64,000 nt of DNA from Salinadaptatus halalkaliphilus (GCF_006543045.1 NZ_RBZW01000058.1:186001-250000); one strand, 5' to 3'; shown: positions 22,101 to 40,500, counted from the stretch's first letter. The notes: a model not told the origin generated them from the sequence alone. Numbers and translations are program-made.

Positions 22101-23819
22101 ATGACGGTCGGTGGAATCGCGCTGGCGACGGACTTCGCGTTGCTCATCGTCGCGGCGACCGTCCTGAGCTACGCGGCTCGATTGACGAAACAGCCGACGA
22201 TCGTCGCCTACGTGCTGACTGGCGTCGTCGTCGGCCCGATTGGGCTCGGGATCGTCGCGGAGGATCAGTTGATCGAGGTCGTCTCGGAACTCGGCCTCGG
22301 TTTCCTGCTCTTTTTGCTCGGCATCGAGATGCGTTTCGACGACATCAGAGGGATCGCCAGACCCGTCGGCGCGATCGCACTCGGACAGGCGATTCTGCAG
22401 GCGGTCGCTTCGACGGCGGTTGCACTCTTGCTCGGCTTTACGCTTTTTCAATCGCTGATGATCGCGCTGGCGACGACCTTCGGCGCGACGCCGATCATCG
22501 TCAAGGTACTCGGCGACAAGGAGGATCTGAAGGCGCTGTACGGCAAGGTCGACGTCGGTATCCTCATCTTTCAGGACATCTACCTCGTGATGGCCCTGGC
22601 GATACTGACGGTCGGCACCGTCGACGACGTCGGCGAGATCGCGTTCAGTATCGGTCGCGTTCTCGCCCTGATGAGCGCCATCGGGGTCGTCGCGTATCTC
22701 GCCAGCAAGTACTTTCTCCCCGCGCTGTTGCGAGCCAGCGCACGGAATAAGAGTACCCTCTTTACCGTCGGCGCCGCCTGGGCGTTTCTGTTCATCTTCG
22801 CCGCCGAGAGCCTCGAGCTCTCCGTCGAAATCGGTGCCTTCCTCGCTGGGCTCGCGCTGGCTCAACTGCCCTACAGCACGGAACTCAAAGAACGGATGCG
22901 ACCGGCGACGAACTTCTTCATCGCCGTTTTCTTTGCGTCGATCGCCCTCCAGATGGAACTCGAGCAGCTGCTTGCGTACTGGCAGGAGGCGCTTATCGCC
23001 TCCGTGCTGTTGATCGGGATCAACTTCGTCATCGTCTTCGGCCTGTTCTACAGCCAGCGCTTCGATATCGAGACCTCCTTTCTCGGGACGATTTCGATGC
23101 TTCAGGTCAGCGAGTTCTCGCTGGTACTGGGGGCACTCGCCGTCGACCAGGGGTTCGTCGAGGAGGGGATCCTCGGCTTCCTCAGCCTGATGGCACTCAT
23201 CACGATGCCGATCTCGACGTACTACGTGATCTACAACCGTCAGATCTACAGCTACGTCAGGCCCGTCCTCGAACGCCTCGAGCGCGAGGACACCATCGAC
23301 GCCCAGCCCGTCGAGTACGACGATCACGCGGTAATCGTCGGCTACAGCCGACTGACCGACGAACTCGCGACGGTGCTCGAGGACGCCGTCGACGACATCG
23401 TCTTCGTCGAGGACGGTGCCGAGTACGTCGAGGAACTGGCCGACGCCGAGTACGGCTTCATCTTCGGCAACGCCAGACACGGCGACATTCGACAGGCTGC
23501 GAACCTCGCCGGAGCCGACGTCCTCGTCAGTGCAAGCGAACGGATCGATGTCAACCGACGGCTACTCGAGGAGACCGACGACGCGGTATCGATCGTCGCG
23601 GCGACCACCGATACGGACGCCGAAACGCTGTCCGAAGCCGGCGCCGACTACGTCGTCGACGGACGCGGCCTCGTCGGCGACGCGGTGGCGAGGCTGCTCG
23701 CGGACCTCGAGGACTCGGAGACGTTCGACCGGCAGATCGAGGCGCTCAACGAGCGCGCGATCGGTCCGTCGTCTCGGTCGACGAGCGACGCCGGTACTGG
23801 AGGTGAGACCGATGTATGA
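22101..23819 (+). CDS. Type-A CPA2 cation:proton antiporter subunit, cassette 1
   Basis: A 572-aa membrane protein of the KefB/CPA2 type: about 12 spans to residue 400 (QPTIVAYVLTGVVVGP near the start, GAFLAGLALAQLPYS mid-protein, then FLGTISMLQVSEFSLVLGA), followed by a cytosolic RCK/TrkA-N-like domain. The ion-site pair in the TM5-like helix is Q158-D159 (LIFQDIYLV), as in glutathione-gated Kef systems. The RCK loop is GYSRLT, lacking the GxGxxG needed for normal nucleotide binding. The start at 22101 (MTVGGIALATDF) aligns with the other two A proteins; a GTG at 22059 is an alternative. Overlaps its B partner by 8 bp. Confidence 0.87.
   Translation: MTVGGIALATDFALLIVAATVLSYAARLTKQPTIVAYVLTGVVVGPIGLGIVAEDQLIEVVSELGLGFLLFLLGIEMRFDDIRGIARPVGAIALGQAILQAVASTAVALLLGFTLFQSLMIALATTFGATPIIVKVLGDKEDLKALYGKVDVGILIFQDIYLVMALAILTVGTVDDVGEIAFSIGRVLALMSAIGVVAYLASKYFLPALLRASARNKSTLFTVGAAWAFLFIFAAESLELSVEIGAFLAGLALAQLPYSTELKERMRPATNFFIAVFFASIALQMELEQLLAYWQEALIASVLLIGINFVIVFGLFYSQRFDIETSFLGTISMLQVSEFSLVLGALAVDQGFVEEGILGFLSLMALITMPISTYYVIYNRQIYSYVRPVLERLEREDTIDAQPVEYDDHAVIVGYSRLTDELATVLEDAVDDIVFVEDGAEYVEELADAEYGFIFGNARHGDIRQAANLAGADVLVSASERIDVNRRLLEETDDAVSIVAATTDTDAETLSEAGADYVVDGRGLVGDAVARLLADLEDSETFDRQIEALNERAIGPSSRSTSDAGTGGETDV
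23799..23806 (+). promoter_or_regulatory. Shine-Dalgarno site of antiporter B1
   Basis: GGAGGTGA, 5 nt before the ATG at 23812 and inside the A1 coding region. Equivalent sites precede the other two B genes; together with the stop/start overlap, this fixes the B1 start. Confidence 0.75.
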
Positions 23820-25458
23820 GATGCTGTTCGCACTGACGCTGATATTCGTCCTCGCGGCCGTTCTGCTGATTGTGGCAGCACAGCGCGGGCTCCCAGTGAT
23901 CCCGTTCTACCTGCTCGCCGGCATCGTCGCCGGCGCGTTCGTCGACGAGACGGCGCTGCTGGATCTCGCCCAGTGGGGGATCGCCTTTCTCGTGTTCCTC
24001 TTTGGCGTCCACGTCGACCTCGACGCGCTGCGCTCGCGCGGTCGGATCGGCGTCGGTGTCGGCATTCTGCAAGCGACAGTGACCGGTGCGCTCGGGTTCG
24101 GCGTCGGTCTCGGGTTCGGTCTCGACGGGGTGAACGCTGTGTACTTCGGCGTGGCCGCCGCCCTGAGCTCTTCGCTCGTCGCGACGAGCTATCTCGATGC
24201 GCCAAGCGGCGCCAGACCGACCTACGAACGCTTGGCGGAGTCGATCCACTTCACGGAGGACGTCCTGGGCGTGGTCGTCGTTCTCGCGTTGGGTGCGTTC
24301 GTCTACGCCGCCACACCGGCACTCGAGCAGTTTGCGGTCGCGGCCGGGCTGATCGCGCTCGGTCTCGGCGTTCGATACCTCCTCTTCCACCGGCTGACGG
24401 CGAGGCTACAGGGCGACTCCGAGGTGATGATGCTCGTCGGCATCTCGTTCGTGATCGGGTTCATCGCGCTGGCCGAACTCGCCGGCCTCTCGATCGTCGT
24501 CGGCGCCTTCGCCGCCGGCATCGCCATCGCGGACGACTACCCACACTCCCTCGAGTTGGTCGATACGGTCGACGATCTCGAGGACTTTTTCACGCCGATC
24601 TTCTTCGTCACCGTCGGCGCGTTGTTGACGGTTCCGGGGTTCGAGACGGGCGGCTATACGATCGCGTTGCTCGTGGCGATCCTCGTCGTGAACCCGCTGG
24701 TGCTCGCCGCCGTTCTCGGCCGGTGCGGATTCGACGGTCGGACGGCGATTCTCGCCGGACTGACGCTCGATCAGATCAGCGTCTTCACGCTGCTCGTTGC
24801 AGTCGAGGCACTCGCTGCCGAGCAGATCGCCCGCCCGCTGTTCGACGCGATCGTGCTGGCGACGGCGATCTCCATGCTCGTCGCGAGTTACACCAGTCGC
24901 CACGGCGGTTCGATCGTTCGCTCCCTGGACGAGCGTGGCTTCCTTCGGGCCATCGGCGGCACCTCCGGCGCGCGGACGGATGTCTCCGAGGATCTCTCCG
25001 ATCACGTGATCGTCGTCGATTACCAACACGGCGGTCGACAGCTCGTAGAGCAACGTGATCGGTTCGACCGCCCGATCCTCGTCGTCGAAGACAACCCGAC
25101 TCTGATGGTGGAGATTGAGGACCACTGTGACGAGTACGTCTACGGCGACGTGCTCGACGACCGTGTCTGGGCGGCCGCCCGTCTCGAGGACGCCGCTGCC
25201 GTCGTCGCACTCTCGCCCGAACGTGACAGTACCGAAGCGGTCGTCGACCTCGAGACGGATGTCCCCCGCCTCGTCCGCGTCGAAACGACCGACGCGGCCG
25301 TGACGTTCCTCGAGCGCGGCGCGGACGGCGTCATCTATCCCGACGCCATCGCAGCCGACCGCATCGGCGACGACCTCGAGGCGCTGCTGGCCGACGACAT
25401 TTCGCTCGAGGCGTTCACTCAGCGGAGTCGCGACGGGGAAGAGACAACTGGCGAGTGA
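23812..25458 (+). CDS. Type-B CPA2 cation:proton antiporter subunit, cassette 1
   Basis: A 548-aa antiporter paralogue, distinct from type A: VIPFYLLAGIVAGAF near the N-terminus, GLSIVVGAFAAGIAIADD mid-protein, about 12 spans, then an RCK-like domain from about residue 395. The ion-site pair is E149-D150 (SIHFTEDVLG), unusual beside the QD or DD of relatives. Its RCK loop is VDYQHGG, which has lost the first glycines of GxGxxG although B2 and B3 keep them. ATG at 23812 overlaps the A1 stop in ATGTATGA. Predicted to pair with A1 in the membrane. Confidence 0.87.
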   Translation: MYEMLFALTLIFVLAAVLLIVAAQRGLPVIPFYLLAGIVAGAFVDETALLDLAQWGIAFLVFLFGVHVDLDALRSRGRIGVGVGILQATVTGALGFGVGLGFGLDGVNAVYFGVAAALSSSLVATSYLDAPSGARPTYERLAESIHFTEDVLGVVVVLALGAFVYAATPALEQFAVAAGLIALGLGVRYLLFHRLTARLQGDSEVMMLVGISFVIGFIALAELAGLSIVVGAFAAGIAIADDYPHSLELVDTVDDLEDFFTPIFFVTVGALLTVPGFETGGYTIALLVAILVVNPLVLAAVLGRCGFDGRTAILAGLTLDQISVFTLLVAVEALAAEQIARPLFDAIVLATAISMLVASYTSRHGGSIVRSLDERGFLRAIGGTSGARTDVSEDLSDHVIVVDYQHGGRQLVEQRDRFDRPILVVEDNPTLMVEIEDHCDEYVYGDVLDDRVWAAARLEDAAAVVALSPERDSTEAVVDLETDVPRLVRVETTDAAVTFLERGADGVIYPDAIAADRIGDDLEALLADDISLEAFTQRSRDGEETTGE

Positions 25459-25507
25459 CGACCGCCCGAAGCGGTGGCGAGTGTGGACGGCTTGACCGAC
25501 GCGTCGA

Positions 25508-26230
25508 TCAGTCGAACGAGGGCAGTACCGCTTCCTCGTAGAACTCGAGAAACTCCGCCTGTCGGGAGCCGACCTGGTGGATCGCCACCATGTCGAAGCC
25601 GGCGTCGACGTACGCCTGGATCGCCTCGATGTGAGCCTCTGGATCCGGCCCGCAGGGGGCCGTCTCGGCGATGTCCGCCCGCGCGACGGCCTGGGTCGCC
25701 TCTGCGAAGTGTGCCGGCGTGGGGAGGTCCCAGAGCAACGAACTCGGGAGGACCTCCTGTGGCCACAGGTCGGCGACCGTCTCGATCGCCTCGGCGTCGT
25801 CTTCGGCGTAGCAGACGGTCGCCTCGCCGTAAATCGGTGCGTCTTCGGCGTCCGCACTCGACTCGAAAGCGTCGACCAGCCCCTCGTCCGGCACGACCGT
25901 GATGAGGCCGTCACCGATCTCGCCTGCTTTGCGGGCCGTCTTCGGTCCGTCCGCTGCGATTCCGATCTCGGGCAGCTCGTCGGGAAGCGTGTACAACTTC
26001 GCGTTCTCGACGGTGTAGTACTCCCCGTGGTGGCTAATCGTCGGTCGCCTGAGCGATCGCCCCGAGGACGTTCCAGACCATCGACTCTCGCCCTGTTCGG
26101 GAAGCCACGGATGGAAGTGATCCGAGACGTTGGCGAACGCGAGGTTCGACTGCTCGGTCAGTTGGGCGTACTCGACGAGGTCGTTCGGGCCGTGCAGTTC
26201 GCTGACGAGTTTGTGTCTGATCTCGACCAT
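25508..26230 (-). pseudogene. Decayed F420-dependent LLM-class oxidoreductase with internal deletion
   Basis: The ends match the F420-dependent glucose-6-phosphate dehydrogenase-like family (about 320 aa): HGPNDLVEYAQLTEQ, VSDHFHPWLPEQGES at the front and HHGEYYTVENAKLYTLPDE, YVDAGFDMVAIHQVG at the back. The middle is damaged. After GES, the expected VWNVLGAIAQATDD is encoded one frame away (about 26084-26038), so a base is lost at about 26083-26088. Directly after it, roughly 75 codons (the barrel part with the TGTGE-type cofactor loop) are missing and the frame returns at ISHHGEYY. The two lesions leave a 240-codon open frame with about 15 nonsense residues. Enzyme activity is very unlikely. 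It lies between antiporter cassettes 1 and 2. Confidence 0.8.
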
Positions 26231-26377
26231 AGTGTCTCCGTCCTCGAGCGTTCGGGAACGGGCGGTCCGACCACGACGGCACCCATACTACCACAGTCGA
26301 CGGGTCGGGAAATCGATCCGTTACTGCGGTGCTCACCGATACGAAACGTTGGACGTGGGACTGTCGGGAAGACAACG

Positions 26378-26385
26378 CATAAAAG
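26378..26385 (+). promoter_or_regulatory. TATA box for antiporter cassette 2
   Basis: CATAAAAG lies about 39 nt before the ATG at 26421, suggesting transcription from about 26410 with a leader of roughly a dozen bases. Confidence 0.45.
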
Positions 26386-26420
26386 CCGGTTGCACATAGA
26401 GGGAGTCGAATACTTTTCGG

Positions 26421-28205
26421 ATGAGCGAAATTGCCCTTGCGGCCGACTTTGCGATCATCGTCGTCGTCGCGACGGGTATCGGATTGATCGCCCGACAGAC
26501 GGGGCAACCGACGATCATCGCCTACATTCTCACGGGAATCATCCTCGGACCGGTCGTCTTTGACGTGGTGACCGAGGAGGGGCTGGTGGAACTGATGGCC
26601 GACCTCGGCTTCGCCTTCTTGCTGTTTTTACTCGGGCTGAAGATGCGATTCGAGGACATTCGCGAGATTCTCCCCGCAGTCACGAACGTCGCCATCGGCC
26701 AGACCGTCATGCAGACGGCGCTTGCGTTTCTTGTCGCGTGGGCGCTCGGGTTTGGGACCACCGAAATCCTCGTCATCTCGCTGGCGACCGTCTTCGGCGC
26801 GACGCCGATCATCGTCAAGATCCTCACCGACAAGGACGAGATCACCAGTCTACCGGGTAAGATCGACGTCGGCGTCCTCATCGTTCAAGATATCTATCTC
26901 GTTGTCGTCCTCGCGCTATTTACCGCCGACGAGCTCGGGAATGCGGCCGACATCGCCTCGACGCTCGGCATCATCCTCGTGATGATGTCGTTTATCGGCA
27001 TCTTCTCGCTGTTTTCTTCGCGGTACATCCTCCCCGGCCTCTTCCGGCGCATCGCGGACAACAAGGACGTCTTTCTCATCGTCGCCATCGCCTGGGCGTT
27101 CCTGTTCGTCGCCATCGCCGAAGGGGCCGACCTCGATCCGAAAGTCGGCGCGTTCCTCGCCGGGATCAGCCTCGCCCAACTCCCCTACAGCAAGGAACTC
27201 GAGGATCGAATCACGCCGATCACGGACTTCTTCATCCTCGTGTTCTTCGCCACCATCGGCCTCCAGATCGACGGGCTCTCGAGTCTGCTGGCCTACTGGT
27301 GGCAGGCGATCGTCGCCTCGATCGTCCTGATGGTCGGCAACTTCTGGATCATGTTCTACCTGATCGACCGAGAGGGATTCGACGTCGAGACCTCCTTTCT
27401 CGGCTCGATCAACATGGTCCAGGTCAGCGAGTTCTCGCTGATCGTCGGCGCGCTCGCGATCGATCAGGGCTACATCGGCCCCGACGTGCTGGGCTATCTC
27501 AGTCTGATGGCGCTGCTGACGATGGGCGTCTCGACGTACATCATCGCCTACAACCACGCGATCTACGCCCGCCTCGAGCCGTGGTTCCAGCGGTTCGAGA
27601 CCGACGAGGAGAAAGACGCCGAGATCAGCACCTACCAGAACCACGCGATCGCCATCGGCTACGACGAGATCACCGAGCGCGCCCTACCGCTTCTCGAAGA
27701 CACGTACGAAGAGGTCGTCGTCATCGACAGGCAGACCGACCACATCGAGGCGCTCGAGGAGGCAGGTCGATACGAGTACGTCTTTGGCGACTTCCGCCAT
27801 ACAGAAGTTCGCAAGGAGGCGAACCTGAAGGGGGCTAAGTTCGTCCTGAGTTCGAGCGTCGAGCGTGAAGTCAACGAAGCACTGCTCGAGGAAGTCGACG
27901 ACGAGGCGACCGTCTTCGTCGAGGCCGAGCGCATCGACGACGCTCGCGCCCTCTACAACCGCGGTGCGACCTACGTCGTCATGAGTACGCACATGGCCGC
28001 CGAGAAATTGAGCGAGTACCTCGAGTTGTACGTCTCCGACAAGCAGACGTTCGACGAGACGATCGCTCGAGACGTCGAGGGGATCCGGGCACGACAGGGC
28101 GGACACCGTCGAGCCGGCGCGGACGGGATGGCCACGGGGGGCCGCGTCGACGACGAACCAGTCGACGACGCCGATCGAACGCCAGGGGGTGATATCGATG
28201 GCTGA
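26421..28205 (+). CDS. Type-A CPA2 cation:proton antiporter subunit, cassette 2
   Basis: A 594-aa protein, clear paralogue of the proteins at 22101 and 32503. It opens MSEIALAADFAIIVVV, then QPTIIAYILTGIILGP, KVGAFLAGISLAQLPYS and FLGSINMVQVSEFSLIVG. The ion-site pair is Q156-D157 (LIVQDIYLV). The C-terminal RCK-like domain starts near residue 405 with the loop GYDEIT, lacking GxGxxG, followed by VFGDFRHTEVRKEANLKGA. About 70 polar residues form a tail. Predicted to exchange Na+ or K+ for protons in salt and pH homeostasis. Overlaps its B partner by 8 bp. Confidence 0.88.
   Translation: MSEIALAADFAIIVVVATGIGLIARQTGQPTIIAYILTGIILGPVVFDVVTEEGLVELMADLGFAFLLFLLGLKMRFEDIREILPAVTNVAIGQTVMQTALAFLVAWALGFGTTEILVISLATVFGATPIIVKILTDKDEITSLPGKIDVGVLIVQDIYLVVVLALFTADELGNAADIASTLGIILVMMSFIGIFSLFSSRYILPGLFRRIADNKDVFLIVAIAWAFLFVAIAEGADLDPKVGAFLAGISLAQLPYSKELEDRITPITDFFILVFFATIGLQIDGLSSLLAYWWQAIVASIVLMVGNFWIMFYLIDREGFDVETSFLGSINMVQVSEFSLIVGALAIDQGYIGPDVLGYLSLMALLTMGVSTYIIAYNHAIYARLEPWFQRFETDEEKDAEISTYQNHAIAIGYDEITERALPLLEDTYEEVVVIDRQTDHIEALEEAGRYEYVFGDFRHTEVRKEANLKGAKFVLSSSVEREVNEALLEEVDDEATVFVEAERIDDARALYNRGATYVVMSTHMAAEKLSEYLELYVSDKQTFDETIARDVEGIRARQGGHRRAGADGMATGGRVDDEPVDDADRTPGGDIDG
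28185..28193 (+). promoter_or_regulatory. Shine-Dalgarno site of antiporter B2
   Basis: GGGGGTGAT, 4 nt before the ATG at 28198, inside the A2 coding region. It decides the start over the in-frame GTG at 28189, which lies within the site. Confidence 0.7.
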
Positions 28206-29898
28206 AGAGCTGGTGATCACGCTCGCCGTCGTCTTCGTCACCGCCGGCACCCTCTCGCTGATCGCGAACCACTTCGGGCTCTCGCCGATCCCGTTCTACA
28301 TCATCGCGGGCCTGATAGCGGGCGGTTTCGAGTCGGTCACCCAGGCGGAGATCATTGTCTTGGCCCAGTGGGGAATCGCCTTCCTCGTGTTCGTCTTCGC
28401 GATCCGGATCGACTTCGGCGACCTCGAGTCGGTGCTTCGAGACGCCGAGATCGCCGCGCTCACCCAGCTGGCCGTCGTCGCACCGATCGCCTTCGGCGTC
28501 GGCTTCGGGTTCGCCGAGTTGTTCGGCTTCACCGATCCCGTCCGCAACGCCGTCTACTTCAGCGCGGCCGTCGTGTTGAGTTCGTCGCTGGTTGGCGGCG
28601 TGGTGCTCGGCTCGGAGATCCGCCAGAACCTGGTCCACGGTCGGCTGGCGTCGTCGATCCACTTTTTCGACGATCTGATTGCGATCGCCTTGCTGTTGAT
28701 CCTCAGTACGGAGGTCGTCACCGCCGACGCCATCGCCGCCCAGATCGGCTACGGCGTCTTGTTCGTCGTCGCCGGACTGGTGATCTACCGCCACGGCTTC
28801 CCACTCGTGGTTCGGCTGGCCGCCGGCGACGGCGAACTCGTTCTCGTCGGGAGCATCTCGATCCTGATCGCGTTCATCGGCGCCGCCGAGTACGTCGGGC
28901 TCTCGATCGTCGTCGGCGCGTTCGCCGCCGGCGTTGCCATCCGCAGCGACGGCACGCAGGCCCTCGAGGTCCAGAACGGTATCGACTCGATTACGGACTT
29001 CTTCGTCGCGATATTCTTCGTCACTGTCGGGGCGCTGGTGACGTTCCCGTCGCTCGAGGTCCTCCTCATCGCGGGCGCGCTCACGGGACTGGTGCTCGTC
29101 CTCAACCCGCTCGTCCACGTCCTCTCGTTCATCTACGAGGGCTACGACGCCCGAACGGCGTTTCTGGCGGGCTCGAGTCTCAACCAGGTCAGCGAGTTCG
29201 CGCTCATCATCGCCATTCAGGCGCTGCTGATGGGAACGATCGCCGAGGCGGTGTTCGAGGCGATCATCCTCGCGGCCGCGGCGACGATGCTGATCACATT
29301 CCTCGCCCGGCGGTCCGAAGACACTGTCTACGAGATCGTCGTCGCCCGGTTGTTTCGCGGCCAGCGGACGCGCAAGGTCGACGAGCGGAGCCACGTCGAC
29401 AACCTCACGGGCCACGCCGTCGTGGTCGGCTACGGGCGTATCGGCCGCCGACTCGTCCAGACGCTCGAGGAGTTCGACCAGTCCTACGTCGTCCTCGAGA
29501 ACGATCCGGTGCTGTGGGACGAGCTCAACGCCGAGTGTCGCAACTACGTGCTTGGCGACGCGCTGGCTGAATATCCGTGGCAGAAGGCCCAGATCGACGA
29601 CGCGGCGCTCGTCGTCTCGACGGTCGACCATCGGCCGGTTTCCGAGACAATCCTCGAACGCGAACCGGACGCCGACGTACTGTTGCGCTCGGAATCGGCC
29701 GACACCGCGAGTGAGTTGCTCGAGGCGGGCGCGACCCACGTCGCCGTACCGAACGTCCTCGCCGGCGAGCAACTCGTCTCGACGGTCGAGGACCTCGCCT
29801 CGGGCGACACCGACGCCGCCGCGCTCGAACAAGCTCAACTCGAGTACTTCCAGACGCTCGAGCGGTACGGGTTCGCGAGCCGCGACGAACGGATCTGA
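28198..29898 (+). CDS. Type-B CPA2 cation:proton antiporter subunit, cassette 2
   Basis: A 566-aa type-B paralogue: SPIPFYIIAGLIAGGF, LSIVVGAFAAGVAIRSD, then FLAGSSLNQVSEFALIIA; about 12 spans and a C-terminal RCK domain. The ion-site pair is D158-D159 (SIHFFDDLIA), the arrangement linked in the CPA2 family to electrogenic exchange. The RCK loop GYGRIG (near residue 408) is a full GxGxxG followed by acidic VVLENDP, so NAD(H)-type nucleotide binding is plausible. ATG overlaps the A2 stop as ATGGCTGA. Partner of A2. Confidence 0.88.
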   Translation: MAEELVITLAVVFVTAGTLSLIANHFGLSPIPFYIIAGLIAGGFESVTQAEIIVLAQWGIAFLVFVFAIRIDFGDLESVLRDAEIAALTQLAVVAPIAFGVGFGFAELFGFTDPVRNAVYFSAAVVLSSSLVGGVVLGSEIRQNLVHGRLASSIHFFDDLIAIALLLILSTEVVTADAIAAQIGYGVLFVVAGLVIYRHGFPLVVRLAAGDGELVLVGSISILIAFIGAAEYVGLSIVVGAFAAGVAIRSDGTQALEVQNGIDSITDFFVAIFFVTVGALVTFPSLEVLLIAGALTGLVLVLNPLVHVLSFIYEGYDARTAFLAGSSLNQVSEFALIIAIQALLMGTIAEAVFEAIILAAAATMLITFLARRSEDTVYEIVVARLFRGQRTRKVDERSHVDNLTGHAVVVGYGRIGRRLVQTLEEFDQSYVVLENDPVLWDELNAECRNYVLGDALAEYPWQKAQIDDAALVVSTVDHRPVSETILEREPDADVLLRSESADTASELLEAGATHVAVPNVLAGEQLVSTVEDLASGDTDAAALEQAQLEYFQTLERYGFASRDERI

Positions 29899-29973
29899 GC
29901 CGCCCGAATACGACGGATCGTAGTGCGACCCGGGCAGGCTCCCCGATCCGGATGGGTCCTGCTCGCGAAGCCG

Positions 29974-30417
29974 TTACGTTGGTTCCCGTCTGTCCTCGAT
30001 CGGAAGGGCGATAACGGGCCGACGAGCCCGGGTAACGAGCTTGAGCGATCGATCGCCCGAAAGGAACTGCAACAGCCGGTTTCCGCCGCGGGATCGGTAC
30101 GCGATTGCGCTGGCATCGACCTCGTCGGCCGCGTCGAAGATCGCGTCGACGACGTTCCTGGCGTAGGCAGTGTGATCGTCGGCCGCCGGAAATACCCGCC
30201 GTACGGCGGCGAACGCGTCGGCGGCCACCTCTTCGGATTGCTCGATCGGAGTCTTGTCCGGCACGCCGCCACCTTTCTCGACGACGTGGAGCACAGTCAC
30301 GGCAGCCGGGTCGTACGGCTCGAGCGCGCGGGCGGTTTTTTCGGCGTCCTCCTCGTGTGCGACTGGCAGGAGAACGTTCTCGAGGAGATCGATCGAGTCG
30401 GGGGTCGAATCATCCAT
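29974..30417 (-). CDS. Universal stress protein (UspA) family protein
   Basis: A 147-aa single Usp domain: opening strand NVLLPVAHEEDAEKTARAL, YDPAAVTVLHVVEKGGG, and a C-terminal segment SRGGNRLLQFLSGDRSLKLV then RRPVIALP. The last part follows the G-x2-G-x9-S/T phosphate loop only loosely, so ATP binding is uncertain. ATG at 30417 is the start nearest the first beta strand. It lies between antiporter cassettes 2 and 3; Usp proteins are often encoded beside haloarchaeal transporters and may regulate them, which is an inference from position. Confidence 0.78.
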   Translation of the reverse strand: MDDSTPDSIDLLENVLLPVAHEEDAEKTARALEPYDPAAVTVLHVVEKGGGVPDKTPIEQSEEVAADAFAAVRRVFPAADDHTAYARNVVDAIFDAADEVDASAIAYRSRGGNRLLQFLSGDRSLKLVTRARRPVIALPIEDRREPT

Positions 30418-30488
30418 ACGAGGACTTGCTGGTCTGGCGGCAAAATAGTTCACCGATCGATACGGTGGGTATCGACACCGTCAACTGC

Positions 30489-30683
30489 TCACACCGGGCC
30501 GCCGAAGTACTCGTGGACGACCAACACGAGGACTAATCCGACGACGAACAGCGACGTACCGACAACCGTCGACAGATCGATGGCGTCTGCCATCCCGAGC
30601 GCGCCGACCACGAGCAATCCGACTCCCGCGGCGTAAACGAGCAGGTTACGCCCGATTCGTAGCACCTGGTTGGCCTCGAACAC
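30489..30683 (-). CDS. Small two-span membrane protein
   Basis: About 64 aa from a GTG at 30683 (VFEANQVLRIGRN), or 84 aa from a TTG at 30743. Two hydrophobic helices, NLLVYAAGVGLLVVGALGMA and VVGTSLFVVGLVLVLVV, are joined by a short loop. No family recognised. It lies between the usp gene and antiporter cassette 3, in the same direction as both. A small accessory subunit of the transporters is conceivable but unproven. The start is uncertain. Confidence 0.55.
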   Translation of the reverse strand: MFEANQVLRIGRNLLVYAAGVGLLVVGALGMADAIDLSTVVGTSLFVVGLVLVLVVHEYFGGPV

Positions 30684-30815
30684 GGTGTTCTCTATCGAAA
30701 CCGCGGTCAAAGGCCTGCTGGTTCGATTCGACGGTCGGGACAATGTAAGGCCGATCCGGACAGTGACAGTCAGTGCGATTTGGGAGATTGACTCGGACGG
30801 TCCGGTAGGACGAGT

Positions 30816-32510
30816 TCACCGGAGATGAAGCGGCAGGTAGTCGGCCCGACGTTCGAGTTCGGCCTGCTGCTGTTCCCGGAGCTCCTCGCGGGTCAGGTCG
30901 CCGTCGAGCAGTCCGCGAACCTGCTGGGCCAGCTGCTGGCCAGCGAGTAGATCGGGCTGGCCGACGTACAGCGCGCCTGCATCGAGCAGTTCTAGGGCAG
31001 TCGCTCGGTCCGGGGCCCGCAGCGTCACTTCGGCCTCGGTATCCAGCGAAAGAATGTGACGCGAGACGGGCTGGGAGTTGACCGTCGAAATGACGAGTTT
31101 TGCGTCGGCGGTGTTTGCCTTTTCCCACGTGTAGCGTTCCATCGCGTCACCGATGACGACGGCCACACACTCACTGACAACGTCCGCTCTGCGGGCAGGA
31201 TCGTTTTCGATGACGACGTAGGGGTGATCCATCTCTTCACAGGTTTGGACCAGGGTTCTCCCCTGCCGACCGTAGCCGACGATGACGACGTGGTCGGCGA
31301 TGTCGTCCGGGACATCGCTCCACTCGTCGACTCGGTCGTGGCGACCGACGATTACCCCGCGGTCGGCGAGCGTCCGGTAGATCTGTTCGTCGTATCGGTG
31401 GGTCAGGCTCGAGGTCACCATCGTCACTGCTGCGGCGAGGATGATGGCGTCGAAGACTGCCGGGCTCAACGCCTCGATCATGAAGGCCTGGATCGCGATG
31501 ATGAGCGCGAACTCGCTGATCTGATCCGTGTTGAGACTGGCGAGCGTCGCCGAACGCGCCTCGTAGCCGCGGGAGATGAGTATCGCCGTGGTGACGGCCG
31601 GCTTCACGACCGCGGTCAGGGCGACGAGGCCGGCGACGAGCACCAGCTTCTCCACGGACTCGGCCCACCCGATACCGCCGACGAACGGGAAGACAACGAG
31701 CGCGCCGATCGTGACGAAAAAGATGGCGACGAAGAAGTCCCTGAGCGACTGGAGGCCGTTGAACAACCCGAGGTAGTCGACCGGATCGTACCGCACGGCG
31801 AGTCCGGCTGCGAACGCGCCGACGACGATCGGGATACCGGCGAATTCGGCTGCCCCGACGAACACCGCGAGCAACGTGATGACCCCCAGGATCATAAGTT
31901 CGTCCGAGTCTCCCGCTAACCGGCCGACGACATCGAACAGGTACCGGTTAACGAGGACAGCCGCCAACAGCAACGCTACCCCAACGGCGAGCGCCGGCCC
32001 CACGTAGCCGATTTCGAGTGTCCCCGCACCCAACAGGAGGATGAAAAGGATAGCAAGCAGGTCCTGGACGAACTGGATCGAGCGCACGAGCCGTCCGCGA
32101 ACGGGATCTGAGTTGATGGTGCGCTGTAACAGCGCGGTGCCGACGATCGTCGACGAGAGTGCGGCAGCGATTCCGAGGTAAATTGCCTCTATCGGCGGAA
32201 CGCCGAGTACAAGGCCGAACCCGACACCGAGCGATCCGACGACCAGGATCTGACCGATCGCCGCAAATTCACCGTCGGCGAGCACCGTCCTGACGCCCGA
32301 CAGGTCGATCCGAGCGCCAAATGCGAACACCAGCAGCGCGATCCCGTAGTACGCGAGTTCGAGCAAGAGGTCCGGATCGATGAACTCTCCGGCGACGATC
32401 CCCGCGAGGACGAAAAACGGCACCGTTGGAAGATCGAGCCGGTTCGCCACGAGGAGGAATGGCCCCGCAACGATGAAGATGATCGTGACCGCTGTGAGCA
32501 GGTCAGTCAT
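30816..32510 (-). CDS. Type-B CPA2 cation:proton antiporter subunit, cassette 3
   Basis: A 564-aa type-B paralogue: LPTVPFFVLAGIVAGEF, IPIVVGAFAAGLAVRYD, then LNTDQISEFALIIAIQA; about 12 spans and an RCK domain. The ion-site pair is Q149-D150 (SIQFVQDLLA), so it differs from B1 (ED) and B2 (DD). The RCK loop GYGRQG (near residue 410) is intact and followed by VVIENDP. ATG at 32510 overlaps the A3 stop in ATGACTGA, with a Shine-Dalgarno site upstream. This cassette runs opposite to cassettes 1 and 2. Confidence 0.88.
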   Translation of the reverse strand: MTDLLTAVTIIFIVAGPFLLVANRLDLPTVPFFVLAGIVAGEFIDPDLLLELAYYGIALLVFAFGARIDLSGVRTVLADGEFAAIGQILVVGSLGVGFGLVLGVPPIEAIYLGIAAALSSTIVGTALLQRTINSDPVRGRLVRSIQFVQDLLAILFILLLGAGTLEIGYVGPALAVGVALLLAAVLVNRYLFDVVGRLAGDSDELMILGVITLLAVFVGAAEFAGIPIVVGAFAAGLAVRYDPVDYLGLFNGLQSLRDFFVAIFFVTIGALVVFPFVGGIGWAESVEKLVLVAGLVALTAVVKPAVTTAILISRGYEARSATLASLNTDQISEFALIIAIQAFMIEALSPAVFDAIILAAAVTMVTSSLTHRYDEQIYRTLADRGVIVGRHDRVDEWSDVPDDIADHVVIVGYGRQGRTLVQTCEEMDHPYVVIENDPARRADVVSECVAVVIGDAMERYTWEKANTADAKLVISTVNSQPVSRHILSLDTEAEVTLRAPDRATALELLDAGALYVGQPDLLAGQQLAQQVRGLLDGDLTREELREQQQAELERRADYLPLHLR

Positions 32511-34263
32511 CGAGTTCACCTCCGAGACGGTCGTGATCGGCCGGGAACGGGTCCGGCTTCTCGAGCAGTTCGACATCGCTGTCGATCGCTTCCATCAGCG
32601 TGTCGTCCTCGCCCTCAAGGTATGCCCGGAGATAGTCCGCGAGTCTGTCCGCTGCGAGATGTGGCGTCATGATAACACAGTGTGCGCCGTTCGCGTAGAG
32701 ATCGCGCGCGTGATCGACTCGTTCGGCTTCGACGAACACCGTCGCGTCGTCACTCACTTCTCGGAGCAGCGCTTTGTTCACTTCCGTCTGGACCGACGAC
32801 GAGAGGACAAAGTCGGCCTGTTTGACGGCCGCGTCCTTCCGTATCGTCGAGTTCCGGAAGTCGCCGTAAATCGCGTCGTACCCTTCTTGCTTGAGGGTTT
32901 CGATGTGGCTGACTGTCCGATCGACGACGACGACGTCCTCGTAGTGATCGGCGAGCAACGGAAGCGCGTTTTTCGTCACATCGTCGTAGCCGATGACGAC
33001 GGCGTGACCGCTATATTCCTGCTTGCCGCCCTCGAACTCGCCGTCGCCGGTCCACCGCTCGAGCGTCGGCTCGAACCGGTTGAACAGCGCGTGGTTGAAC
33101 TCGATGAAGTACACCGAGACGCTCATCGTAAAGATTGCGAGCAGGGTCATGAAGCCGAGCACTTCAGCCTGGATGAACCCGCCCTCGAAGGCAACGGCGG
33201 CGACGATGATGCCAAACTCGCTGACCTGGATCATGTTGATCGAGCCGAGAAACGTCGTCTCTGTGTCGAATCCCTGCCAGTCGAGCAGATAGAAGAAGAT
33301 CAGGAACTTCACTGGCATCAACACGAGTGCGGCGACGATTGCCTCTTGCCAGAGGCCGAGCAACTGGGCGGCCTCGAGGTCGAGTGCGACCGAGACGAAA
33401 AACACCATGACGAACAGGTCGGTCAGCGGGTTGACCCGATCCTGGAGCTCCTTGCTGTAGGGCAGTTGGGCGATCGCCAGGCCGGCGAGGAACGCGCCCA
33501 TCTCGATCGAGAGATAGGCTTCGATGCCAAACGGCGCGAGAAAGAGGTTGATGTTATCGGAGACGAACACGAACAGGAACGCCCACGAGATGGCGACGAG
33601 GAAGAAGACCTCCGTGTTGTCCGCGATGCGCCGGAAGACGACCGGCAGCACCGACTTCGAGGCACCGATCGCGGCGACGGTGATGAGTGCCACGAGCACG
33701 AGTACGACCGCGAGCGTGGTCGCGACCTCGGCCAGATCGTCCGGCTGGCCGGCGGCGAGCACTGCCAGGATGATGACGACGACGATGTCTTGGACGAGCA
33801 AGACCCCGACGTCGATCTTGCCGTGCAGCGAGGTCGCCTCGTCCTTGTCGTTGAGCATCTTGATGACGACTGCGGTGGAGCTATACATCACCGCCAGTCC
33901 GATCAGGAACGACTCGAGGAGGCCAAACGGCGGCAGCGCCAGCGCCACGCCCATGCCGGCCAGAAAGACCGCAGCCATCTGGGGAAGCGATATCTTGACG
34001 ATCGGCGTGAGGACGTGCTGGATGTCCTCGAGTCGCATCTTGATGCCGAGCAAGAACAGCAAGAAGGCGAGGCCGAGTTCCGAGAGCAACTCGGTGAGTT
34101 CGCTGGTCTCGACGATGCCGAGGACCGCCGGGCCGATGATGATCCCCGCGAGGATATAGGCGATGATCGTCGGTTGGCCCGTCTGCTTGGCGATGAAGCC
34201 GACGATCGTCGCACTCAGAAGGATAATCGCGAAGTCGACCGTAAGCACTACGTCGGCGACCAT
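32503..34263 (-). CDS. Type-A CPA2 cation:proton antiporter subunit, cassette 3
   Basis: A 586-aa type-A paralogue: MVADVVLTVDFAIILLSA, QPTIIAYILAGIIIGP, EMGAFLAGLAIAQLPYS and FLGSINMIQVSEFGIIVA. Closest in motifs to A2. The ion-site pair is Q158-D159 (LLVQDIVVV). The RCK-like loop is GYDDVT, degenerate as in the other A subunits, with YGDFRNSTIRKDA following. First gene of cassette 3; a TTAATT stretch about 30 nt upstream of the ATG (34291-34296) could be its TATA box. Confidence 0.88.
   Translation of the reverse strand: MVADVVLTVDFAIILLSATIVGFIAKQTGQPTIIAYILAGIIIGPAVLGIVETSELTELLSELGLAFLLFLLGIKMRLEDIQHVLTPIVKISLPQMAAVFLAGMGVALALPPFGLLESFLIGLAVMYSSTAVVIKMLNDKDEATSLHGKIDVGVLLVQDIVVVIILAVLAAGQPDDLAEVATTLAVVLVLVALITVAAIGASKSVLPVVFRRIADNTEVFFLVAISWAFLFVFVSDNINLFLAPFGIEAYLSIEMGAFLAGLAIAQLPYSKELQDRVNPLTDLFVMVFFVSVALDLEAAQLLGLWQEAIVAALVLMPVKFLIFFYLLDWQGFDTETTFLGSINMIQVSEFGIIVAAVAFEGGFIQAEVLGFMTLLAIFTMSVSVYFIEFNHALFNRFEPTLERWTGDGEFEGGKQEYSGHAVVIGYDDVTKNALPLLADHYEDVVVVDRTVSHIETLKQEGYDAIYGDFRNSTIRKDAAVKQADFVLSSSVQTEVNKALLREVSDDATVFVEAERVDHARDLYANGAHCVIMTPHLAADRLADYLRAYLEGEDDTLMEAIDSDVELLEKPDPFPADHDRLGGELDD
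32516..32523 (-). promoter_or_regulatory. Shine-Dalgarno site of antiporter B3
   Basis: On the minus strand GGAGGTGA, 5 nt before the ATG at 32510, inside the A3 coding region. Sequence and spacing are the same as at B1. Confidence 0.75.
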
Positions 34264-38121: not shown

Positions 38122-38559
38122 CTAGACGCGAACCGTCGTCGGATCGATCCAGAGTACGAAGTCGTCCTCCCGTCGAACAATGCCGGCGATGCCATCGCCC
38201 TTGACCGAGGTGTCGACCGTATTCGTCTCGAGCTTGCTGACCTGTTGGACTTCGTCCGCGAGCCAGCCGATTCGCTCGCTCGAGCCGCGTTTGCGTTTGA
38301 AAACGATGATCCGCTCACCGAGATCCTCGGTATCGTCGGTACTGTCGTCGAACACTTCGCGGAGGTTGACGATTTTGGTCGTCTCCCCGCGAAGGTCCAT
38401 CACGCCTTCGACGTGTGGTGGGGTGTTTGGAATCCCCGTCAGTTTGTCCGTGTTGACGATCTCTGCGACGTAGCCGATGTCGACGCAGTAGCGAGTCTCC
38501 CCGAGCGTAAACTCGAGGACATCCGTACTCGTCGGTTGGGTCGATTTCGTTGAAGCCAT
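38122..38559 (-). CDS. cheW: Chemotaxis coupling protein CheW
   Basis: A 145-aa single CheW domain that links transducers to CheA. Recognisable segments are VLEFTLGETRYCVDIGYVAE, GVMDLRGETTKIVNLREVF (the classic V-x-x-L-R-G turn) and GWLADEVQQVSKL. It lies 19 nt after the longer CheW gene in the same direction, so parA, the long cheW and this gene are probably one operon. Confidence 0.92.
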   Translation of the reverse strand: MASTKSTQPTSTDVLEFTLGETRYCVDIGYVAEIVNTDKLTGIPNTPPHVEGVMDLRGETTKIVNLREVFDDSTDDTEDLGERIIVFKRKRGSSERIGWLADEVQQVSKLETNTVDTSVKGDGIAGIVRREDDFVLWIDPTTVRV

Positions 38560-38578
38560 AGATTGTTGTCTGGAGGAG

Positions 38579-39685
38579 TTACCCGGTGTGTTCGATGAGC
38601 GTGGCGGTGTCGAGCCACGTCACGAGCTCGGTTCGATCGTCGGTCGATTTCTTGATGATACCGTTGATGAACTCGTGCTCTTCGGCGGCGTCCATGACGC
38701 TGGCCGTTTCGTCGATCTGCGACGTTCGGTAGGTCACGGCCTGGGAGACATCCGTGACGCGAACGCCGAGTTTCTGTTTGTCGTCGTCGCGTTCCAAGAC
38801 GACGATGTACTGGTCGTCGCTGCGCTCGTTTCGCTCGATGTCGAGCATGACTGTGGGATCGAGGACGGCCGTAATTTCGCCGCGAAGGTCGGTGACGCCA
38901 TCGATCGCGTCCGGACCGCGCGGGAATCGCGTGATCTCTTTCATCTCGACGATCGCACTGATTTGCTCGATTTCGACCGCGTATCGGCTGTCGTTGAGGT
39001 AAAACTCGAGCATTTGGATGGTATCGTCGTCGTCGTGAGTCGAGGCGACGAGACTGTCACCTTGCTCGAAGACCGCGGCGCCACGCCCGGCCGCTCCCGC
39101 GCCATAGCCCTCCGTGTCGGCGACCGCTGCAGCGTCAGCGGTCGCCTCGTCGCCGATGTCGTCGACGAACTCGGACATGATACTCGCGTCGGCGATCGCG
39201 CCGCCGAATGCCGACTCGGCCGATTGTTGGCTGTCGACCATCGGGCTCGCTTCGTGGTCGCTCACCGTCGGTTCGGCCGCGTCGGCCGCCGGAATAGACG
39301 ATTCGTCGAACGTAAGTTCGTCGCCGGCATCGGTCGACGCCGATCCGTCGCTCGAGACTGGTTCTGACGCGACACTCGGTGGAGCCGGCTGCTCGTCGGT
39401 CGACGAGCCGGCTGCTGACTCCGTCTCTCCTGGGTGTGAGGGATCGTCGTCGGAATCGTCTTCGGCTTCCGTGTTCTCCGCGACGGCATCGGAGTCTTCG
39501 GCGGCCGTCTCGGCGTCTCCAGCAGCGTCGTCCTCCGTTGCCGACCCGTTTCCGTCGGGTACGGCCTCCTCGTCGGTAGTTCCGGCGTCACCCTCGTCCG
39601 GGGCGTCGCCGGACTGTTCGTCGTCTCCATCGCTCGAGCGTCGGTTCCGTAGATCACGAATGCGCCGTGCTCTGTCGTCTGTCAT
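38579..39685 (-). CDS. CheW-domain protein with long acidic N-terminal region
   Basis: A 368-aa protein. Residues about 1-235 are low-complexity and highly acidic (MTDDRARRIRDLRNRR, then long runs rich in D, E, S, A and G). Residues about 240-368 are a complete CheW domain (QMLEFYLNDSRYAVEIEQ, GVTDLRGEITAVLDPTVM, LGVRVTDVSQAVTY). It is thus a CheW tethered to an intrinsically disordered arm. Its ATG overlaps the parA stop (ATGA), linking its synthesis to the ParA-like ATPase. The arm could bind or space arrays; this is inference. Confidence 0.85.
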   Translation of the reverse strand: MTDDRARRIRDLRNRRSSDGDDEQSGDAPDEGDAGTTDEEAVPDGNGSATEDDAAGDAETAAEDSDAVAENTEAEDDSDDDPSHPGETESAAGSSTDEQPAPPSVASEPVSSDGSASTDAGDELTFDESSIPAADAAEPTVSDHEASPMVDSQQSAESAFGGAIADASIMSEFVDDIGDEATADAAAVADTEGYGAGAAGRGAAVFEQGDSLVASTHDDDDTIQMLEFYLNDSRYAVEIEQISAIVEMKEITRFPRGPDAIDGVTDLRGEITAVLDPTVMLDIERNERSDDQYIVVLERDDDKQKLGVRVTDVSQAVTYRTSQIDETASVMDAAEEHEFINGIIKKSTDDRTELVTWLDTATLIEHTG

Positions 39686-40500
39686 GCTGGTACCTCCTCG
39701 GTTGCGCGTTCGTCCTCGAGTTGCTCGGCCATCGACGCGAACACCGATTCCATATCGACGTTCTCCTCGACGGCAAACACTGACTTTCCGTCGGCGAAGG
39801 CCCGTTGGAGCGCAACGCGTTTGCGCACGCGATACAGCGGCACGTCCGGCAAGGCGTCGTCGAACCACTCGAGCATGTTGTCCGCGGCTTTGGTGTTTTC
39901 GATGCGGTTGGCGACGAGTGCGCGTGGCTCGATTTCGATATCGTGGTCCATTTCGAGGGAGCCGACGTAATCGAACAAGAGTTCGAGCGATCGCTTGCTC
40001 GTCGGTTCTGCCAGCGCCGGAATCACCAGATTCTCCGTCGCGTACAACGCGTTGTCAGTGACGAGTCCGAGATACGGCGGACAGTCGACCACGACGACAT
40101 CGTAGTCCGTCTCGAGTTCGGTCAACACGGCGTCGAGTTTCGTTTCGGGATCGGGTTGCCGAGCGAGCGTCGAGTCGGCGGCGTTCATATCGACGTTGCT
40201 CGCGACGATATCCATCTCGGGATGGTCGTAGACGAGGTCGTCTAGATCGACGTCGGTCGGATCGACGAGCGCGTCTAGCAACGTCGGAGGGTCAGCATCG
40301 TAGGCCTCGAGCAGCCCAAGCCCCTCCGTCGCGTTCCCCTGTGGGTCGAGATCGACGAACAGTACGTCCCGACCGCGTTCGTTCAAGGCACCGGCCAAAT
40401 TAATAGCTACGGTCGTCTTCCCGACGCCTCCTTTTTGATTTGTCACGCAGAGCCGAGCGGATCCCGCCATTCGCTTGGGTCGTTTCGATTCTGCATACAT
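39682..40500 (-). CDS. ParA/Soj family ATPase linked to chemotaxis genes
   Basis: A 272-aa MinD/ParA ATPase with the deviant Walker A NQKGGVGKTTVAINLAGAL (about residues 21-39), Walker A' DLDPQGNATEGLG and Walker B VVVDCPPYLGLV. ParA proteins form dynamic gradients that position DNA or protein arrays. No parB partner is adjacent. Instead two cheW genes follow in the same operon, and cheB-cheA-cheD are divergent. By analogy with bacterial ParC, which positions chemoreceptor arrays, a role in chemotaxis-array placement is a reasonable inference. Confidence 0.85.
   Translation of the reverse strand: MYAESKRPKRMAGSARLCVTNQKGGVGKTTVAINLAGALNERGRDVLFVDLDPQGNATEGLGLLEAYDADPPTLLDALVDPTDVDLDDLVYDHPEMDIVASNVDMNAADSTLARQPDPETKLDAVLTELETDYDVVVVDCPPYLGLVTDNALYATENLVIPALAEPTSKRSLELLFDYVGSLEMDHDIEIEPRALVANRIENTKAADNMLEWFDDALPDVPLYRVRKRVALQRAFADGKSVFAVEENVDMESVFASMAEQLEDERATEEVPA

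Follow-up and report, generated by a model that had tools for sequence, protein, structure and literature searches.

The 64,000-nucleotide (nt) stretch of Salinadaptatus halalkaliphilus DNA analysed here (GCF_006543045.1, NZ_RBZW01000058.1:186001-250000; hereafter the window, part of contig 71 in a 4.5-Mb genome assembly of 77 contigs) contains at positions 22101-34263 six CPA2/Kef-type antiporter genes. Each encodes an Na_H_Exchanger domain followed by a TrkA_N domain, and they form three cassettes in which a type-A gene precedes a type-B gene. The genes, their pairing and the age of that pairing are solid: A and B are paralogues of ancient origin, linked in every case and inherited together. 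We propose that each cassette probably specifies one asymmetric cation/proton antiporter, a translationally coupled heterodimer of an A and a B protomer. Judged by the residues that each half has kept, the best reading would make A the dependable transport protomer and B the nucleotide sensor.

The three cassettes and the linkage of A and B

A preliminary description of the window had reported six such genes in three A-then-B pairs, and all of them were recovered with both domains above cut-off: 92.9-179 bits for PF00999 (cut-off 26.2) and 41-60 bits for TrkA_N (PF02254, cut-off 23.8). All six fell below the 238-bit cut-off of the CPA2 subfamily model TIGR00932 (64.9-161.8 bits), and none reached the NCBIfam KefB/KefC equivalog cut-offs (752/804 bits), scoring at most about 135 bits. 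Amino acid identity was 42-51% among A proteins, 36-43% among B proteins and 21-26% between A and B. As described earlier, one pair is inverted with its order kept, since pair 3 lies on the minus strand with A still upstream of B. The motifs quoted for A and B were present as well, but QVSEF is not specific to A, as B2 has it too.

Residues are given by their equivalents in KefC, the Escherichia coli K+/H+ exchanger (PDB 8BXG; PMC11150392), and cassettes are numbered by orthologous group. In cassette 1, A1 (22101-23819, + strand) has a QD ion site, Asn at the KefC-307 position and a degenerate loop, GYSRLT, in its RCK domain. Its partner B1 (23812-25458, +) has an ED site, Val in place of the Glu of transmembrane helix 12 (TM12) and a degenerate RCK loop, DYQHGG. 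B starts were corrected relative to the preliminary description, that of B1 moving from GTG 23416 to ATG 23812. Cassette 2 consists of A2 (26421-28205, +; QD, GYDEIT) and B2 (28198-29898, +; DD site, SEF present, intact GYGRIG loop), and cassette 3 of A3 (32503-34263, -; YSSTA, QD, Lys at the KefC-307 position, GYDDVT) and B3 (30816-32510, -; QD, Lys at the KefC-307 position, SEF, GYGRQG). Five more PF00999 matches occur elsewhere in this genome, so not every CPA gene in it is paired.

All three junctions share an identical 8-nt overlap, ATGNNTGA, which the preliminary description had missed, and a ribosome-binding sequence, GGAGGTGA or GGGGGTGA, lies within the end of A, 5 nt ahead of the overlap. 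The A1/B1 junction (23799-23819, +) has GGAGGTGA at 23799-23806 and the stop/start overlap ATGTATGA at 23812-23819. At the A2/B2 junction (28185-28205, +), GGGGGTGA occupies 28185-28192 and the overlap ATGGCTGA 28198-28205, and at A3/B3 (32503-32523, -) GGAGGTGA lies at 32523-32516 and the overlap ATGACTGA at 32510-32503.

Profiles built from the three A and three B proteins were run on 145 and then on 391 genomes of the class, and every fetched locus was read directly. Both types formed sharply separate classes: A genes scored at least 500 bits with the A profile against 112 for the next CPA2 gene, and B genes at least 490 bits with the B profile against 92. B lay directly downstream on the same strand for all 128 complete A genes fetched, a pair count that is a lower bound because three candidates were scored per genome; three pairs had a frame-damaged A. 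The sole two unpaired A genes lay at contig ends with a B fragment still visible, and in genome G054 a B remnant was found on a second contig (contig 18, L168). No lone intact B was present among the fetched loci, in a search that a weak lone gene could escape where three matches score higher. On the question raised earlier of whether B ever occurs without A, neither gene was thus found intact alone in the 391 genomes, and recurrence of the arrangement in 128 of 128 cases excludes chance.

Pairs were patchily distributed (65 of the 391 genomes). A natural A-B fusion of the Rosetta-stone kind had no intact example among the loci examined; the one chimera (G264, L124, 3026-4744), which switches from A to B at the conserved VGAFxAG motif and contains a stop codon, is an apparent deletion between A and B that is now decaying. 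In G378 (L145, 3050-4789) a frameshift splits the first A gene and its B remains open. Many named hosts of the pair (L170-L189, L238) bear soda-lake or alkaliphile names, including Natronorubrum, Natronococcus, Natrialba hulunbeirensis and Halorubrum vacuolatum, which, in this list of hosts, hints at a possible link with alkaline habitats.

The trees of A and B matched, as the preliminary description had expected of two clades with parallel branching. Patristic distances correlated with a Pearson coefficient of 0.885 (best of 2000 permutations, 0.10), and clusters agreed with an adjusted Rand index of 0.82. When genomes were compared with one another, the nearest A and nearest B were pair partners in 84% of cases, where 40% would be expected by chance. 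The window cassettes sit in three orthologous groups that recur together in many genomes, which points to whole cassettes having been duplicated long ago and bears out the earlier suggestion of duplication as a unit. Site chemistry was linked between partners: 38 pairs combined S125/K307 in A with QD/K307 in B, about 60 combined G125/N307 in A with DD or ED/N307 in B, and 16 combined G125/N307 in A with QD/K307 in B. These combinations follow clades and hence reflect matched inheritance, not independent events. Group 3, with QD and Lys in both halves, looks K+/H+-like, and the B of group 2 has a DD site but no Lys; from these site residues it is plausible that different copies handle different ions.

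The overlap was exactly 8 nt in 112 of the 128 pairs and 4 nt in five others. Among Haloferax volcanii gene pairs, 45.2% of those spaced -8 to +10 nt code for heteromeric complexes, compared with 5.6% of those more than 20 nt apart, and termination-reinitiation coupling requires such short gene distances (PMC10666635). By analogy, the A/B spacing raises the prior for an A-B complex and is no proof of one.

Unequal halves

We mapped residues onto KefC (PMC11150392) in 125 pairs. The ion site of A was almost invariant, with Q155 in 125/125, D156 in 123/125, S336, E337 and F338 in 125/125 each, and T127 kept. In A3 the ion-site codons Q158-D159 (KefC Q155-D156) lie at 33787-33792 (-). B shows less of the QD motif of K+/H+ exchangers: its first residue was Gln in only 54 of the 125, otherwise Asp (42), Glu (23), Asn (4) or others. 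The catalytic Asp of B was kept in 125/125, and the SEF Glu was usually retained. The DD version is represented by B2 (D158-D159, 28669-28674, +); where B has DD the TM11 Lys partner is missing, with Asn there in nearly all cases.

The RCK domain showed the opposite bias. In A the GxGxxG loop was lost in 125/125, G408 being replaced by Asp, Ser or Asn and G411 by Thr, Ser, Ile, Ala or Val, and neither glycine was retained in any protein (0/125). The arginines that contact the AMP phosphate were replaced too, R409 by Glu or Asp in most A proteins and R496 by Glu where the motif was readable. B kept G408 in 101/125, G411 in 121/125, R409 in 96/125 and R496 in 119/125. Within the window, A3 carries the degenerate GYDDVT (KefC GFGRFG) at 32974-32991 (-) and B2 the intact GYGRIG at 29428-29445 (+). 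At R416, part of the glutathione (GSH) site, most A proteins have Pro and most B proteins Glu. The GSH/AMP contact set R409, R416 and R496 of KefB/KefC was not matched by either half: mostly Glu/Asp, Pro and Glu in A, and Arg, Glu and Arg in B. Group-1 B proteins were exceptional in that 17 of about 19 no longer had the TM12 Glu, and their nucleotide loop was damaged.

One heterodimer or two homodimers

Under the heterodimer proposal, ribosomes finishing A would restart on B and give about 1:1 synthesis. The two proteins would then pair through TM1-TM8', replacing the KefC homodimer contact, and nucleotide binding at the RCK half of B would control exchange in both protomers or chiefly in A. 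The window's cassettes would be three diverged versions of one such antiporter, whose likely physiological role is to exchange K+ or Na+ for H+ in the control of salt and pH.

Single-chain models of A3 and B2 (pLDDT 85.7 and 87.1) showed a 13-TM CPA fold, then a Rossmann-type RCK domain. For each, KefC was the top structural hit along the entire chain, and two terminal helices like those of KefC follow the Rossmann fold. The KefC dimer forms chiefly where TM1 of each monomer packs against TM8 of its partner (PMC11150392). In the 125 pairs, mutual information between columns of A and columns of B placed several TM1-TM8 positions near the top, reciprocal and antiparallel, among them A218-B24, A17-B225, A225-B17 and A223-B16 (KefC numbering). 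With 156 pairs, both reciprocal TM1-TM8 bands peaked at the same offset (z 3.2 and 3.45; A-A 1.8, B-B 2.45), and the A-B signal was 7.15 against 5.94 +/- 0.31 when partners were shuffled within clades. After clade-level signal was removed, A-TM1 x B-TM8 stayed in the top 0.43% of bands. The strongest bands found by the same method within A joined TM5 with TM11/TM12, which are real contacts in KefC. RCK-RCK covariation between A and B showed no enrichment. We regard the A-B covariation at the canonical TM1-TM8' interface as suggestive and partly post hoc.

Several points weigh against the proposal. The TM1-TM8' block was picked after the list had been seen and its helix limits were set by eye on the KefC sequence, so that the p-values of 0.03-0.05 are optimistic. 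The enlarged set is small (effective number of sequences, 78) and not independent. Without clade-level signal, B-TM1 x A-TM8 reached only the top 8%, which does not set it apart from A-A or B-B (about 9%). With its Asp invariant, B need not be a pure regulator, and loss of the nucleotide loop in group 1 means that a sensor role for B would not be universal. Finally, two co-regulated homodimers would also be consistent with the co-inheritance and the overlap.

This last possibility, in which A and B form separate, co-expressed homodimers with complementary jobs such as different ions or pH ranges, is the main rival, and we consider it unlikely. KefC, the best fold match of both proteins, is itself a homodimer (PMC11150392), close bacterial relatives are found as single genes, and B has its essential Asp throughout and usually its SEF Glu. 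Separate homodimers would, however, leave unexplained why a nucleotide-blind A never occurs without B, and why strict 1:1 pairing with matched clades persists over deep divergence. Nor would they account for the retention of group-1 B despite the loss of its TM12 Glu and nucleotide loop, and in the uncorrected analysis TM1-TM8' covariation was stronger for A-B than for A-A and B-B.

A special case of the heterodimer, weighed here on its own, would make B a non-transporting regulatory subunit of A, a pseudo-antiporter acting as KefF/KefG do on KefC/KefB. The contrast between the constant ion site of A and the drifting first motif residue of B would fit such a role, as would the loss of the TM12 Glu in most group-1 B proteins. 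It nevertheless seems rather unlikely: the Asp is invariant and groups 2 and 3 have the rest of the site intact, so most pairs seem to have preserved transport through B.

Haloarchaea readily exchange operons, and the patchy spread would suit transfer of a ready-made block, but a plain tandem duplication of functionally independent genes, held together by operon inheritance and horizontal transfer, is very improbable, since the complete linkage, the precise overlap across domains and the complementary residue loss argue for selection on the pair, and in the sole A/B merger a stop codon interrupts the frame.

The earlier claim that A and B are obligate partners thus stands as far as linkage, matching trees and the lack of an intact lone gene are concerned; for a physical heteromer the evidence is indirect, namely conserved translational coupling, the complementary loss of sites in the two halves and A-B covariation at TM1-TM8', the contact of the canonical dimer.

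Relatives, origin and meaning

The preliminary description had framed the pairs as haloarchaeal. They do occur there, but this scope proved too narrow: a scan of 84,980 genomes followed by profile sorting also found them in Nanohaloarchaeota and other DPANN archaea and in bacteria. Outside haloarchaea, A-B pairs occurred in Nanohaloarchaeota and in metagenome-assembled genomes (MAGs) labelled Thermoplasmata and Aenigmatarchaeota. More distant pairs, alike in order, overlap and asymmetry, were found in MAGs of Gemmatimonadetes (Gemmatimonadota), Myxococcales (Myxococcota) and Verrucomicrobiota, a distribution in which binning may have misplaced some contigs. The overlap in bacterial pairs was 8 nt (Myxococcales) or 4 nt (Gemmatimonadetes, Verrucomicrobiota). 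Their first genes encode GMNxLG or GINSLG (GMSPFG in one) and their second genes mostly GxGxxG (GYGSNG, GYGRAG, GGGTAG), which indicates that in most of these pairs the same half lost the loop. In Verrucomicrobiota, A adjoined B in 6/6 genomes with B (of 145). Neither a 1.03-Mb Nanohaloarchaeota genome nor a Chthoniobacterales (Verrucomicrobiota) MAG, both of ungiven completeness, had any PF00999 match besides the pair, which suggests that the pair forms a complete unit.

All B-position genes formed one clade (SH-aLRT 98.8, bootstrap 97). In approximately unbiased tests bearing on a single origin of the pair, monophyly of all A genes (p = 0.54) and of A plus B (p = 0.49) was neither rejected nor shown. 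Nearest in the tree were single-gene CPA2+TrkA_N relatives, which are widespread (Gammaproteobacteria, Patescibacteria, Woesearchaeota and others; L197-L247). They have QD and SEF in nearly all cases and GLGRFG in many, combine both functions in one protein, and showed no A/B partner in the fetched flanks. A Nanohaloarchaea MAG (L248, 2318-5881) carries two CPA2+RCK genes in tandem that fit neither type clearly, one scoring 354 bits with the A profile and 339 with the B profile, the other 372 and 317; they may be an independent pair. B-profile matches in two genomes from other classes of the phylum (G544:C1:1220577-1222193 and G465:C5:84754-86358) lie in unusually long frames of 1179 and 1006 amino acids, possible fusions with another domain.

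Among the neighbouring genes of the window, a Bac_luciferase-like gene lies between cassettes 1 and 2 (25508-26230, -); it covers only positions 138-313 of the 314 in its family profile, the C-terminal half, and looks truncated or frameshifted. A universal stress protein gene lies between the convergent B2 and B3 (29974-30453, -). Both were rejected as parts of the system, as the gaps between convergent pairs elsewhere are too short for such genes (e.g. 375 nt in L072). At 38122-39868 (-) lie two adjacent genes encoding CheW domains, one of which has an extended acidic stretch at its N terminus.

KefC resembles A and B in joining a 13-TM CPA2 module to an RCK/TrkA_N domain, at 20-23% identity, and shares with A the QD ion motif and the equivalents of T127 and S336/E337/F338. 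It differs in forming a homodimer that has two AMP sites and is gated by GSH, whereas here there are two genes, A lacks the nucleotide loop and R416 is replaced. The RCK domain of B2 matched the TrkA_N structure 3FWZ of the YbaL type (PRK10669; 4.5e-8), but YbaL is a single-gene family and B scored 62-111 bits against its cut-off of 700. NapA/NhaP antiporters have the transporter fold of the A/B models (TM-score 0.80-0.82 to NapA by target length) and the DD motif of B2, but no RCK domain; B proteins of the DD type lack the TM11 Lys partner. Closest in proposed working mode are UmpAB (DUF1538) and PsmrAB, two-component Na+/H+ antiporters of Halomonas in which adjacent genes encode two homologous membrane proteins that are active only together, UmpAB having been shown to be a hetero-dimer by co-immunoprecipitation (PMC5484666). 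They belong to other families, not CPA2, and have no RCK domains. Kef antiporters are already known. No description of an obligate heteromeric CPA2 family, paired Kef genes or a haloarchaeal Kef pair was found in the open literature, which is no proof of novelty because subscription journals lay mostly outside the search.

Taken across domains, the pairs may represent a family of obligate heterodimeric CPA2 exchangers, a tentative proposal that we hold less firmly than the heterodimer itself. A Kef-like single-gene homodimer would have been duplicated, A would have lost nucleotide sensing and B retained it, leaving each dimer with a single RCK site to gate transport, with group-1 B further towards a pseudo-protomer. 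If true, this would, to our knowledge, be the first antiporter with the CPA1/CPA2 fold to have asymmetric subunits. In all domains of life, CPA antiporters control cellular pH, Na+ and K+; they have been studied as symmetric homodimers, whose symmetry makes it hard to ask whether protomers and regulatory domains act independently. A natural heterodimer with one nucleotide-blind and one nucleotide-sensing half would allow mutation of one half to answer that question directly, and the three old versions that this genome carries, with their different ion-site residues, would offer a ready comparison series.

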